DNA from: a virus
Virus record (IMG/VR): IMGVR_UViG_3300035670_000059
Coordinates: 49,733-113,732 of that record
Strand: one strand, 5' to 3'
Length of the DNA stretch: 64,000 bases
The notes beneath the pieces were generated by a model. It did not search any database. It saw nothing but the letters and a program-made list of their open reading frames with translations, and was not told where the DNA came from. Numbering within the stretch: position 1 is the stretch's first letter; the number at the start of each line of letters is the position of its first letter. Of this stretch, positions 19,651 to 64,000 are shown piece after piece. The position numbers and the translations under genes were made by a program.

Positions 19651-21567
19651 ATGATACAAGATAAAATATTCTTTGACGAAAAAGACCCAACCGGTGTTTC
19701 CTACAACACCCCATTCACCGTTTACGGAAGCTACGAGGGTAGATTGTGGAGTAAAACCCCAAGTGGTACTATAAAATACTACACACAAAACAGTGATTTA
19801 TCTGTTTATGCTACAACAGGTTCAAATTCCTTTAACGGAAACCAAACCGTAACTGGTTCTTTAACAGTAACAGGAGGAATAACGGGATCCGCTACAACTG
19901 CTTCTTACGTTGAATATACTAGTGTAGCAAATAAACCTTCACTTGTATCAAGTTCGGCTCAAATTGTTGGGTATAACGTATTTGCTACTACCGGTTCCAA
20001 TCAATTTAACGGAAGTCAAGCTGTAACAGGGTCTTTAACGGTAACAGGGCAGGTAGTTGCTCAAACATTGAATGTACAACAGGTAACCTCTAGCATTGTG
20101 TATTCTAGTGGAAGCAATATATTTGGAAATAGTGTATCCAACACACAACAGTTTACTGGTAGTGTGTCTGTGACTGGGAGTTTGACAGTGAATGGAGCAG
20201 GTACATTTTCTAGCGCAGTTACATCTAATTCCTTTATCTCTGATGGAACTGCAAATGAAGGCGTAATACGAATTGAACGTGACACTGTAAGTACTAACAC
20301 AGTTATTGGAGCTTTAAACTTTACAAACAATAATGGCTCTACAGTTTATGGTAGAGTTCGTGGGGGTAGAAATTCTGCTGGAGACGGATATGCAAGTTTA
20401 GGTACAGGTGTTGGGGATAATTTATATGCAATAGAAGGTGGTAGTGTGGGTATAGGCACGGCTAGTCCTGAAACATTAAGCAACAATACTACTTTGCAAA
20501 TTGATGGGACAAACCATTCATTTGTAAGAACTGGAAATTCAAGTTATGGGGGATATTTTGCTACAATCCCAACTGCTGAAGTTTTATGCATCGCCAATGT
20601 TCGAAACCCAGTTACAGGTACTTACAACAATACTGGAAAAGCCGCTAGCGGGATAAATTTATTTTCTGAAAGTTCAAATGGTTATATTACTTTTCTTACT
20701 ACTGCAACAAATAATAGTGGTCCAAGCGAACGCATGCGCATCACCTCAGGTGGCAATGTTGGTATAGGAATTACAAACCCAACAGCACAACTATCATTAA
20801 AAAACCAAATTTCAAATGGTTCAACCCCTGTTTCATCTTATGCTGCAACAAATGGGGTTGATGGGCAAAATTTCTTTAATGGATATTATGCTGTAAATAG
20901 TGATGGTTTAGGACCATATCCAAGATATTTTGATATTGTTTCAACTGGCTCTCCTGATGGTTCAAACGGTGGTAGTAACATTAGATTCTTTACAAATCCA
21001 ATTACAAATAATTCACCAGCAGTAGAACGCATGCGTATCACCTCAGGTGGTGTTGTTAGAATAACCAGCTTTACAACTAATGGTTTAGTTGGCACAGATT
21101 CATCAGGAAATTTAGGTGTTGTAATTTCAGAATACACTGAAATTGCCACAGGAACAATAACTTACTCAATGAACTCTGGTTCTCCTTGGGCAATTAATAA
21201 TTCATTCCCTGCTACTATCAGAAACTATGAGGATGATGGGATGGCAGGTTCAGGAGGTGTAGATACTAACCTTAACTTAGGTAGAGGAGTAACATTTGAT
21301 TTAGGTTCAGCAAAAACAGTGAGAAAAATAGTTGAAAGAGGGTATCCTACAAAAAATCTAAACCAAATTATTGTTCAATATTCAACAGATAATTCAAATT
21401 GGACTGACATATACGTTTATAATCATGTTTATGGTAATACACAGAAGGATATGGAATTTAATCCAACAGGAGCAATTTCTGCTAGATATTGGAGATGGTT
21501 TATACATAGCTGGTCAGAAAGAGAAGTACAAAACTACTATACATACGAATCAATAATTTATACATAA
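19651..21567 (+). CDS. Tail fibre protein F with C-terminal discoidin-like domain
   Basis: 638 residues. It has the shared module and the MRITSGG repeats of its neighbours but no S74 domain. Residues about 495-638 instead form a domain with RGVTFDLGSAKTVRKI, IIVQYSTDNSNWTDIY and ARYWRWFIHSW, the pattern of F5/8 type C (discoidin) domains that bind sugars. The tip may therefore bind a surface glycan and fold without the self-cutting chaperone. A small paralogue of 14569 follows after one base and could assist it. Confidence 0.75.
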   Translation: MIQDKIFFDEKDPTGVSYNTPFTVYGSYEGRLWSKTPSGTIKYYTQNSDLSVYATTGSNSFNGNQTVTGSLTVTGGITGSATTASYVEYTSVANKPSLVSSSAQIVGYNVFATTGSNQFNGSQAVTGSLTVTGQVVAQTLNVQQVTSSIVYSSGSNIFGNSVSNTQQFTGSVSVTGSLTVNGAGTFSSAVTSNSFISDGTANEGVIRIERDTVSTNTVIGALNFTNNNGSTVYGRVRGGRNSAGDGYASLGTGVGDNLYAIEGGSVGIGTASPETLSNNTTLQIDGTNHSFVRTGNSSYGGYFATIPTAEVLCIANVRNPVTGTYNNTGKAASGINLFSESSNGYITFLTTATNNSGPSERMRITSGGNVGIGITNPTAQLSLKNQISNGSTPVSSYAATNGVDGQNFFNGYYAVNSDGLGPYPRYFDIVSTGSPDGSNGGSNIRFFTNPITNNSPAVERMRITSGGVVRITSFTTNGLVGTDSSGNLGVVISEYTEIATGTITYSMNSGSPWAINNSFPATIRNYEDDGMAGSGGVDTNLNLGRGVTFDLGSAKTVRKIVERGYPTKNLNQIIVQYSTDNSNWTDIYVYNHVYGNTQKDMEFNPTGAISARYWRWFIHSWSEREVQNYYTYESIIYT

Positions 21568-62024: not shown

Positions 62025-62399
62025 ATGTTCGAATCAACAACATTAGGCTATTCAGGAATTACAGGAACAGGAACAATATCAAATAGTATTACTTTCCAAG
62101 GACCAACAGATGCAACAAGAATTTCAGGTGGGACAGTAGGAATGGGGGTTTTAAACCCTAATCAAATATTAACAGTATCAAATTCAAATAACATGACATC
62201 AAAACAAATAAAAGTAGCAGTATTTACAATCACAAGAGATGTAGACACAAATGAAATTACTTCAACTAAATTCGTAAAAGAATTGTGGGTTGAGAAAAAA
62301 AACGGAGCATCAATTGATTTAATTGTTGCAAAACAATTAGATGCAGATTTTGATCCTGAAACTACAGTAATTAAAGAACTATTTACAATTAGTTTCTAA
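62025..62399 (+). CDS. Hypothetical beta-rich protein
   Basis: 124 residues. The first 50 residues (GITGTGTISNSITFQGPTDA) are fibre-like; the rest is mixed alpha/beta and ends in ELFTISF. It stands alone between a host-like promoter and the tRNA cluster. No family recognised. Confidence 0.6.
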   Translation: MFESTTLGYSGITGTGTISNSITFQGPTDATRISGGTVGMGVLNPNQILTVSNSNNMTSKQIKVAVFTITRDVDTNEITSTKFVKELWVEKKNGASIDLIVAKQLDADFDPETTVIKELFTISF

Positions 62400-62406
62400 T
62401 AACGAT

Positions 62407-62477
62407 TGTCCTATGGTGTAACGGTAGCACAAGTGGTTTTGGTCCACTTAGACGAGGTTCGAATCCTTGTAGGATAA
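62407..62477 (+). tRNA. tRNA-Gln (UUG)
   Basis: A full cloverleaf can be drawn: 7-bp acceptor stem (TGTCCTA with TAGGATA, one G-T pair), 5-bp anticodon stem AGTGG/CCACT with loop TTTTGGT (anticodon TTG), and a T arm with TTCGAAT. CCA is not encoded. Confidence 0.9.
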
Positions 62478-62482
62478 CAAAC

Positions 62483-62564
62483 GCCTGTATCGCATAGCGG
62501 CAATTGCTGGGGACTGTAAATCCCCCCTCTTCGGAGTTCGGAGGTTCGAGTCCTTCTGCAGGCA
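62483..62564 (+). tRNA. tRNA-Tyr (GUA)
   Basis: Acceptor stem GCCTGTA with TGCAGGC, anticodon stem GGGGA/TCCCC with loop CTGTAAA (anticodon GTA), and the long variable arm expected for bacterial tRNA-Tyr. It lies 5 bases behind tRNA-Gln. Confidence 0.9.
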
Positions 62565-62583
62565 CATAAAATGAATTAAATTA

Positions 62584-62617
62584 CTTGGAAACCCGAAAAT
62601 AGATCATTATATTTATG
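62584..62617 (+). promoter_or_regulatory. Host-like promoter, CTTG-N20-TATATTTATG
   Basis: CTTG at 62584-62587, a 20-base spacer and TATATTTATG at 62608-62617, 10 bases before tRNA-Met. The -7 part also contains TATTTATGA (62610-62618), a variant of the other motif class. Confidence 0.5.
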
Positions 62618-62627
62618 AAATAATAAC

Positions 62628-62702
62628 GGACCCTTAGCTCAGTTGGTTAGTAGCAACGGTCTCATAAACCGTAGGTCGCTGGTTCGAGCCCAGCAGGGTC
62701 CA
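62628..62702 (+). tRNA. tRNA-Met (CAU)
   Basis: Acceptor stem GGACCCT/AGGGTCC, anticodon stem ACGGT/ACCGT with loop CTCATAA (anticodon CAT), T stem GCTGG/CCAGC. All stems pair fully. The CAT anticodon could also be the modified Ile (AUA) tRNA; the sequence alone does not decide. Confidence 0.9.
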
Positions 62703-62722
62703 CAAACAAAAAAAAACAAAAT

Positions 62723-63064
62723 ATGGAAATAGTATATTTTATCTTAGGTGTATTTACAGTTTTATCTATAATCGGAGTTGTAATTGTAGTTAGAATGACC
62801 ATTGCAGTAAGGCAGTTACAAGAAGATTTAAAAGATCATGAAAGAGGAACTCATGATGTGACAGTTGATTTACATCGTAGAATTGATGATGAAGTAAGAA
62901 AATTACGATCTGATAATGATGAAACCCTTCTTTTAATCTGGAAGGAAGTAAGAGAATTGCAAACTAAAATAGATGAAAACGAAAGGGAAATTATATCATT
63001 ACTCGATTCTCAGGTATATAGATTAACAAATAAGATTAATAAACAACAATTACCAAAAGGGTAA
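62723..63064 (+). CDS. Small membrane-anchored coiled-coil protein inside the tRNA cluster
   Basis: 113 residues: one N-terminal membrane segment (about 4-25), then a charged coiled coil (about 30-105). It lies between tRNA-Met and the Asp-like tRNA. No family recognised. Confidence 0.65.
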   Translation: MEIVYFILGVFTVLSIIGVVIVVRMTIAVRQLQEDLKDHERGTHDVTVDLHRRIDDEVRKLRSDNDETLLLIWKEVRELQTKIDENEREIISLLDSQVYRLTNKINKQQLPKG

Positions 63065-63072
63065 TTTAAAAT

Positions 63073-63190
63073 TGTAGAGTGGCGAAATTGGCAGACGTAG
63101 CCCCTCTGTCACAGGGGAGGTGATAAAGAAATAAAATACAGCTAACTGTATCTAATCTCACCATGGATGGTTCGAATCCTCCCTCTACAG
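63073..63190 (+). tRNA. Aberrant tRNA-Asp-like gene (GUC) with a large extra arm
   Basis: The ends pair perfectly (TGTAGAG with CTCTACA). The anticodon stem CCCCT/AGGGG with loop CTGTCAC (anticodon GTC) is that of tRNA-Asp. But the D arm (TGGCGAAATTGGCAGACG) looks like a class II tRNA, the variable region is about 45 bases with its own hairpins (ATACAG/CTGTAT inside GGTGA/TCACC), and the T stem has two mismatches. At 118 bases it is far too long for tRNA-Asp. It may be a mutated tRNA or a tRNA-like structure. Confidence 0.5.
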
Positions 63191-63195
63191 CACCA

Positions 63196-63267
63196 GCTCC
63201 TAAAGCATTGCTGGCGATGCGCATGACTTGTAATCATGATAACTTGGTTCGATTCCGAGTGGGAGCT
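63196..63267 (+). tRNA. tRNA-Thr (UGU)
   Basis: Acceptor stem GCTCCTA/TGGGAGC, short D stem GCA/TGC, anticodon stem CATGA/TCATG with loop CTTGTAA (anticodon TGT), T stem CTTGG/CCGAG. The discriminator base is T. Confidence 0.82.
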
Positions 63268-63473
63268 CAATGTAATGTCTACAGAAGGTGATAATGCTTC
63301 ACTGAAAGGACTATCGACTTCCGGATGGGTCGCAACCATAATTGGAAGGTGAGGAACGGCTCGATAGACTCTGTACAGGTCCCTGCTCTGCTAGCGCTGG
63401 CAACAGGTTATGGGGAACAAACCATAAATAAAAACCGGAGAAACGATATTACAGTAGTTAAAGTAGCTTATTT

Positions 63474-63617
63474 GGTTCTATAATTGTCATAAGGTAGCTC
63501 CTTATACAATGAGTGGGTTAATGTGACGGTCAATCGTAAAGGCTCAAGGTACGTAACAAGTAGCAGTTGATTGAAGTAAGTGACTTAACAAGATGGGTTC
63601 GATTCCTATTAGAACCA
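63474..63617 (+). other. tRNA-like structure within the non-coding RNA region
   Basis: GGTTCTA (63474-63480) pairs fully with TAGAACC (63610-63616), next to a proper T arm (ATGGG, TTCGATT, CCTAT at 63593-63609). The D-arm place is taken by a long hairpin (ATTG/CAAT continuing into ATAAGG/CCTTAT, loop TAGCT), and the centre holds about 75 bases without a clear anticodon arm. It looks like tRNA ends on a different body. Confidence 0.5.
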
Positions 63618-63815
63618 CAACATTTATAATAAATTAAAGTACTTACCACGCTATCCATAAGAACAGCGTCCCAGGGTAAGTCAAGGTACCTCGATGTTAA
63701 CCGTAAGAACAACACAGAGGTCTTATCGTGATAAGTGAATAGCCCAAGGCATAAGCTACAATCACACCCCTAACCTCTATTCAAATGACGATTTGATTAT
63801 GTTAGGGTTTTAACA

Positions 63816-63883
63816 ACACCCTATGACGAAGGAACTCAATTGAGAACTAGAAGTAAGGGCACTATGCACATAGGGTGTTTTTT
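63816..63883 (+). terminator. Long-hairpin terminator of the non-coding RNA region
   Basis: A 10-bp stem ACACCCTATG (63816-63825) with CATAGGGTGT (63869-63878) and a T run. The 43-base loop contains the palindrome CTCAATTGAG. Confidence 0.75.
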
Positions 63884-63889
63884 ATATTT

Positions 63890-63961
63890 GCTCGGTTCGT
63901 CTAGGGGTTAGGACGTATCCCTTTCACGGATAAAACACGGGTTCGATTCCCGTATCAAGTA
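63890..63961 (+). tRNA. tRNA-Glu (UUC)
   Basis: Anticodon stem TATCC/GGATA with loop CTTTCAC (anticodon TTC), a D arm of the Glu type (TCGTCTAGGGGTTAGGACG), T stem ACGGG/CCCGT. The acceptor stem GCTCGGT/ATCAAGT has one C-A mismatch and two G-T pairs. Confidence 0.82.
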
Positions 63962-63965
63962 CTAT

Positions 63966-64000
63966 AGTCAGGTGGCGAAAGGGGTTGGGGGTTCTCGGCC
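63966..64000 (+). tRNA. Possible 5' part of another tRNA, cut by the window end
   Basis: Seven bases followed by TGGCGAAA, the same D-arm start as in the Asp-like gene at 63073 and in class II tRNAs. Only 35 bases are visible, so identity cannot be given. Confidence 0.25.

Follow-up and report, generated by a model that had tools for sequence, protein, structure and literature searches.

Several conserved structured RNAs among the clustered tRNA genes of a T4-like phage

The window analyzed here forms the final 64 kb of a virus record of 113.7 kb. Its major head protein is T4-like and, among isolates, is closest to that of Flavobacterium phage immuto (58% identity over the full length); the phage is T4-like and Immutovirus-related, and its host is probably Flavobacterium-like. 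A gene which we take to be queC from its sequence, identified without a profile search, is followed by a tRNA cluster (Gln, Tyr, Met, Thr, and Glu), an arrangement common to the window phage and immuto. At gathering scores, Rfam recognized nothing but tRNAs across the whole window. A tRNA-like gene at 63074-63188, with GUC where the anticodon would lie and an extra hairpin on its very long variable arm, was missed by ARAGORN; similar genes were noticed in the loci L103 (3180-3322, minus strand) and L120 (1797-1930). The stretch studied, 63268-63885, is flanked by tRNA-Thr (63196-63268) on the 5' side and tRNA-Glu (63890-63962) on the 3' side. As the initial annotation held, it contains no plausible protein gene, the largest ORFs being 52 aa on the plus strand and 61 aa on the minus strand.

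At least three conserved structured RNAs (A, B, and C) and a terminator-like hairpin (D) make up the stretch; our joint confidence in this decomposition and in the folds is very high. The folding energy of the stretch (z -1.93, with 1 of 20 shuffles as good) is weak evidence by itself; it is covariation that decides that the structure is real. Compensatory base changes, which the initial annotation had proposed to look for in homologues, were found in the stems of A, B, and C, and its view of a structured non-coding RNA beyond the common small RNAs was thereby borne out. The comparison with all Rfam models, also proposed there, went partly its way: no intron or tRNA-array match appeared, but a fragment matches freshwater-1 below the gathering score, which at relaxed thresholds is the sole significant match on the plus strand of the stretch. 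At E<=10, the Rfam search of the stretch found no GOLLD, ROOL, group I intron, RNase P, or ribozyme. The absence of tmRNA and RNase P, judged earlier by eye, agrees with ARAGORN/Rfam, which found no tmRNA in the window, and with Rfam, which found no RNase P at E<=10; as positive controls, ARAGORN/Rfam detect tmRNA in L003, L025, and L212. Phage-encoded tmRNAs beside tRNA arrays were observed in L003, L025, L037, and L212, and a permuted tmRNA in L005 (7351-7646).

RNA A (63269-63457, plus strand, ∼190 nt), delimited by the covariance model R1 and by covariation, is closed by the helix P1 (63271-63279/63445-63453), with P2-P8 inside. The match to freshwater-1 (RF02979) at 63372-63433 on the plus strand is the P7-P8 part of this fold; it reaches 60.1 bits (E 7.2e-13) against a gathering score of 72, and its alignment spans model positions 1-62 with both consensus hairpins and no non-standard pair marked. 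The direct orthologues in L004, L023, L024, L027, and L031 exceed the gathering score (72.6-79.1 bits). Scanning IMG/VR with the conserved hairpin of this match gave homologues located between tRNAs, and in their alignment homology reaches far past the Rfam fragment, over ∼190 nt with a terminal stem. In all, phage tRNA arrays contain at least 17 distinct homologues. The 62-nt Rfam model spans one third of RNA A, the 3' third; RNA A extends freshwater-1 by P1-P6, both ends, the genomic context, and the phage origin. Our search of the open-access literature found no paper on freshwater-1 RNA.

Double-sided changes were present at 31 of the 48 pairs of RNA A with nine sequences and at 35 of 48 with 17 sequences, where 92% of cells are paired versus 32-44% in slid controls, and none of 500 shuffles reached the covariation score. 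The R1 match in the window (63266-63457) scores 187 bits, the window sequence having been in the seed. Built from the first nine sequences, R1 also finds held-out members in L103, L065, L126, L090, and L049 (E 1e-33 to 1e-52), loci fetched solely for containing an S element (described below), and two more in L182 and L255, which were fetched for RNA C. The lowest real member scores 111.6 bits; in bacterial genomes, the best of the P7-motif matches listed (80 loci) has 21.6 bits, which is chance, and those candidates were rejected. Neither do we claim as homologues a second phage RNA set (L005, L008, L009, L015, L016, L029, and L038), which matches R1 at 11-19 bits, mostly over a shared CCTGCTCTGC...GCAACAGG hairpin alone, for which the search pattern had selected. 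As a separate observation, L005, L008, L009, L015, L016, L018, L029, L038, and L040 carry a different candidate RNA of ∼300 nt with the CCTGCTCTGC...GCAACAGG hairpin, which is not in Rfam.

In 17 of 19 loci, the first nucleotide of RNA A lies -7 to +2 nt from where an upstream tRNA or tRNA-like gene has its 3' end. The exceptions in the tabulated start positions are L039, where a tRNA-like gene overlooked by ARAGORN lies directly upstream, and L154, where a Bacteroidota-type promoter (TATCTTTG) and no tRNA lies directly upstream. The downstream tRNA or tRNA-like gene, where recognized, usually starts 0-31 nt past A. Since A abuts the upstream tRNAs, it is probably released by tRNA-processing enzymes. 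The identity of the flanking tRNAs varies freely among loci, which would argue against a cis-regulator of one gene. Sixteen of the 23 loci with RNA A also contain S elements.

RNA B (63474-63617, plus strand) is tRNA-like, and its ends are as exact as the initial annotation had proposed: GGTTCTA at 63474-63480 pairs 7/7 with TAGAACC at 63610-63616. This 7-bp acceptor stem encloses a D-like hairpin with a UAGCU loop, a long middle arm, and, 5' of the acceptor 3' strand, a T arm (ATGGG-TTCGATT-CCTAT), followed by A73; an unpaired GAGUGGGU and a GUNAA/UUNAC stem are conserved too. The middle is oversized and partly variable. Relatives were found by similarity, then by pattern, and then by a covariance model (R2), which identified 13 loci in addition to the window, among them L097 and L049, missed by the pattern. 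Double changes occur at 16 of 35 pairs, with 93% of cells paired versus 36-51% in slid controls; the covariation score was reached by 0 of 500 shuffles, and unconstrained RNAalifold yields the same cloverleaf. B has the 7-bp acceptor, the TTCRANN T loop, and the unpaired A past the acceptor of a tRNA. Nevertheless, neither ARAGORN nor Rfam (RF00005) reports a plus-strand tRNA at 63474-63617, and in place of a 7-nt anticodon loop on a 5-bp stem it has the long middle arm. RNA B is not an ordinary tRNA and is not in Rfam. All 14 of the 14 B loci contain S.

RNA C (63639-63811) contains two copies of a hairpin with the conserved loop CCRTAAGAWC, the pair sharing a loop core that had been picked out earlier (63639-63682 and 63686-63722); the second copy heads the ∼130-nt C2. 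The first hairpin (63639-63682, plus strand), recognized by similarity and motif, has the form GUAC-stem-(U/A)NCCRUAAGAWC loop-GUC and is 91% identical over 45-46 nt in L079 and L065. The full motif is GUAC-stem-GCW-NNCCRUAAGAWC-WGC-stem-GUC, and in 70 real members, retrieved with a pattern that left the 5' inner triplet free, the inner triplets covary perfectly (GCA/TGC in 36, GCT/AGC in 33, and GTT/AAC in 1). C2 (63686-63811, plus strand), drawn from eight aligned homologous sequences, comprises the second loop hairpin, a middle hairpin (63728-63732/63761-63765) with GUGAAUAGCCCAAGGCAUAAG, whose loop sequence is nearly invariant, and a terminal stem. The latter, terminator-like (63768-63774/63801-63807), encloses a GACG tetraloop hairpin, and this loop sits on five different complementary stems across phages. 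RNA C matches no Rfam family, either in the window or in the related loci that were scanned. The earlier suggestion that the RNA could be new is upheld. Hairpin D (63816-63883, plus strand) is the terminator hairpin that had been predicted: a 10-bp stem in which ACACCCTATG (63816-63825) pairs with CATAGGGTGT (63869-63878), followed by T6, and the long stem is also present in the predicted fold.

Just 21 of the 70 C hairpins have a tRNA within 700 nt, and a T-run follows about half of the 70. Because C hairpins are also found at a distance from tRNAs, and often with a T-run behind them, a role as terminator or in cis is conceivable, and RNA C may act in cis. We further observed a C hairpin a few dozen bases 5' of the ATG of a gene starting MAGN (e.g., in L178, L184, L214, L219, L265, L271, and others), and it may in addition belong to the 5' leader of this phage gene.

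A further family of these tRNA arrays, S, has 7-130 nt between its start AGTCAGGTGGCGGAATGGTAGACGC and its end ACAGGTTCGAATCCTGTCCTGACTA. Its shell of acceptor, D arm, and T arm is nearly invariant, and a hypervariable insert replaces the anticodon arm. In IMG/VR, we counted at least 202 distinct copies on at least 116 loci, with at least 157 insert clusters and up to seven copies per locus; the family was seen in at least 139 loci in all. Unrelated copies share 87% identity in the shell and 28%, the chance level, in the insert, whereas the inserts of orthologous copies are 85% identical. Natural inserts form more stable folds and disturb the T arm less than shuffled ones; the result for a closing helix at the tRNA core is mixed (mean expected pairs 1.44 versus 1.04 shuffled; Wilcoxon p 0.83). 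In the window, an S element begins with AGTCAGGTGGCG at 63966-64000 (plus strand) and is cut by the contig end, and two further elements lie at the other contig end (L407/C1, 300-377 and 612-758), so the assembly probably broke in an S repeat. Several smaller features were noticed around these elements: an element, L, that links S copies and has a variable middle within a conserved shell (TGTTGTTCCCTTGAGAAAGGA...ACAACACAGAGGACTTCTCATCCTC; 19 cases, e.g., L103 at 6344 and 6136 on the minus strand, L182, L120, L097, and others); a hairpin insertion in the D loop of tRNAs or S elements (L039 1049-1146 and L027 6222, both minus strand, L109, and the window at 63966); and a short recurring TTGACAGCTGGAAAGACAGC directly 5' of B or S (L068, L163, L170, L027, and L098), which could be a promoter or processing site.

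A, B, and C/C2 are distinct families, each with a fold supported by covariation, and they recur in phage tRNA arrays. As an explanation of the whole, we favor a phage tRNA operon with several independent structured RNAs that would be processed and act in trans, a reading for which belief and doubt are about evenly balanced. A, B, and C would be co-transcribed with the tRNAs and excised by tRNA-maturation enzymes: A through cleavage at the neighboring tRNAs and B via its own acceptor and T arm, with C2 ending in its own terminator. Our confidence in processing by tRNA enzymes is moderate. The released RNAs could be stable during infection and act in trans, as T4 rnaC and rnaD presumably do; the tRNA fold of B would serve as a processing and stability shell with the enlarged middle arm as the working part, and in the compact A the conserved unpaired bases may bind a protein or RNA partner. 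Our confidence in any particular molecular target is low, and a search of the incomplete phage record for the TROVE (Ro, Y-RNA partner) and RNA_ligase families found none.

The strongest competitor to this trans-acting reading is that the elements are not independent RNAs but serve the tRNA operon in cis, as spacers, processing signals, or terminators. The hairpins with T-runs at C2, at D, and at the ends of some A members, together with the T-runs behind C hairpins, fit such roles; we consider it unlikely as a general account, as A, among neighbors that vary, has 8-9 helices and numerous bases that are unpaired yet invariant, far more than a spacer would require, and B has a complete acceptor and T arm. 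An origin of B (and S) from tRNAs that have decayed or that bear an intron would explain the acceptor, the T arm, the remainder of tRNA size, and the score of S as a weak tRNA. This is quite improbable, as the middle arm, GAGUGGGU, and UAGCU of B are conserved with compensatory changes, the S shell is 87% identical between unrelated copies with inserts at chance (28%) while orthologous inserts agree at 85%, and no group I intron matches. A catalytic RNA A that serves the phage tRNA array, e.g., by self-cleavage or as a compact RNase P-like RNA, is suggested by the compact fold, the invariant loop bases, and the constant position among tRNA precursors; it is very improbable given that Rfam has no ribozyme or RNase P match at E<=10, that RNase P core signatures were not seen, and that tRNA arrays need only host enzymes. 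A single ornate RNA of ∼600 nt of the GOLLD/ROOL kind would fit the size, the dense stems, and the tRNA neighborhood described in the initial annotation, GOLLD and ROOL being found near tRNA islands (PMC12286853); it is scarcely credible and refuted as a single RNA: A, B, and C occur apart, elsewhere, and in other orders with tRNAs intervening, A alone occupies a 186-nt gap between two tRNAs in L025, and neither GOLLD nor ROOL matches at E<=10 (GOLLD searched over 62300-64000), though the GOLLD model matches L021, which also carries RNA A, at E 6e-77.

It is possible, but doubtful at present, that tRNA arrays serve as a natural tRNA-scaffold display, in which a constant shell presents many conserved inserts, several per genome, that would counter factors of the host or of rival phages as decoys, guides, or aptamers, and in which A is a common island component. 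As shells we count S, more loosely B, and the non-tRNA shell L. If the hypervariable inserts are indeed decoys or guides, they would constitute a new type of phage RNA arsenal. We found nothing in the literature on tRNA-shelled phage RNAs of this kind. In the engineered tRNA-scaffold RNAs of Ponchon and Dardel, a foreign RNA reportedly replaces the anticodon arm; the acceptor, D, and T arms are likewise kept in S and partly in B, which differ in being natural, phage-encoded, and multi-copy. A, B, C, and S are all absent from the immuto genome, and this isolated relative indicates that they are dispensable in the immuto lineage; no named phage isolate searched by nucleotide similarity carries them. 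In immuto (L410), unannotated hairpin-rich gaps between tRNAs (21005-21100 and 21171-21256) are candidate small RNAs in a cultured phage.

GOLLD (RF02032) and ROOL are likewise structured phage ncRNAs of unknown function by tRNA islands (PMC12286853), but they measure 600-800 nt against about 130-190 nt for A, B, and C and show no sequence or model match to them. In L021, GOLLD lies at 1277-1693 and shares its array with a diverged RNA A. By position and anatomy, the closest known analogues are T4 rnaC (species 1) and rnaD (species 2), late-expressed RNAs of unknown function (PMC9697503). No homology was detected in the T4 region, where R1 gave a best local match of 12.5 bits (8.9 bits within rnaD) and R2 found tRNA-Leu only (E 0.28); the resemblance of the rnaD loop GUCGCUA to the P6 loop of A, GUCGCAA, was discarded as not significant (8.9 bits). 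The likeness is that rnaC and rnaD are stable non-tRNA RNAs annotated within the T4 tRNA cluster, that the order tRNA-rnaD-rnaC resembles tRNA-A-B here, and that a T arm is present close to the 3' end of rnaC. To our knowledge, the two T4 RNAs have stood for decades without a known function, seemingly a curiosity of one phage. Standard annotation misses such genes or labels them 'undetermined tRNA', and the orphan Rfam fragment freshwater-1 now has a complete fold, a home in phages, and a rule for its genomic position, directly after a tRNA. In uncultured freshwater phages, the rnaC/rnaD niche is occupied by three unrelated covariation-supported families and a large tRNA-shelled family, and, since A, B, C, and S fill it, it is common for tRNA clusters to contain RNAs other than tRNAs, and these are diverse.
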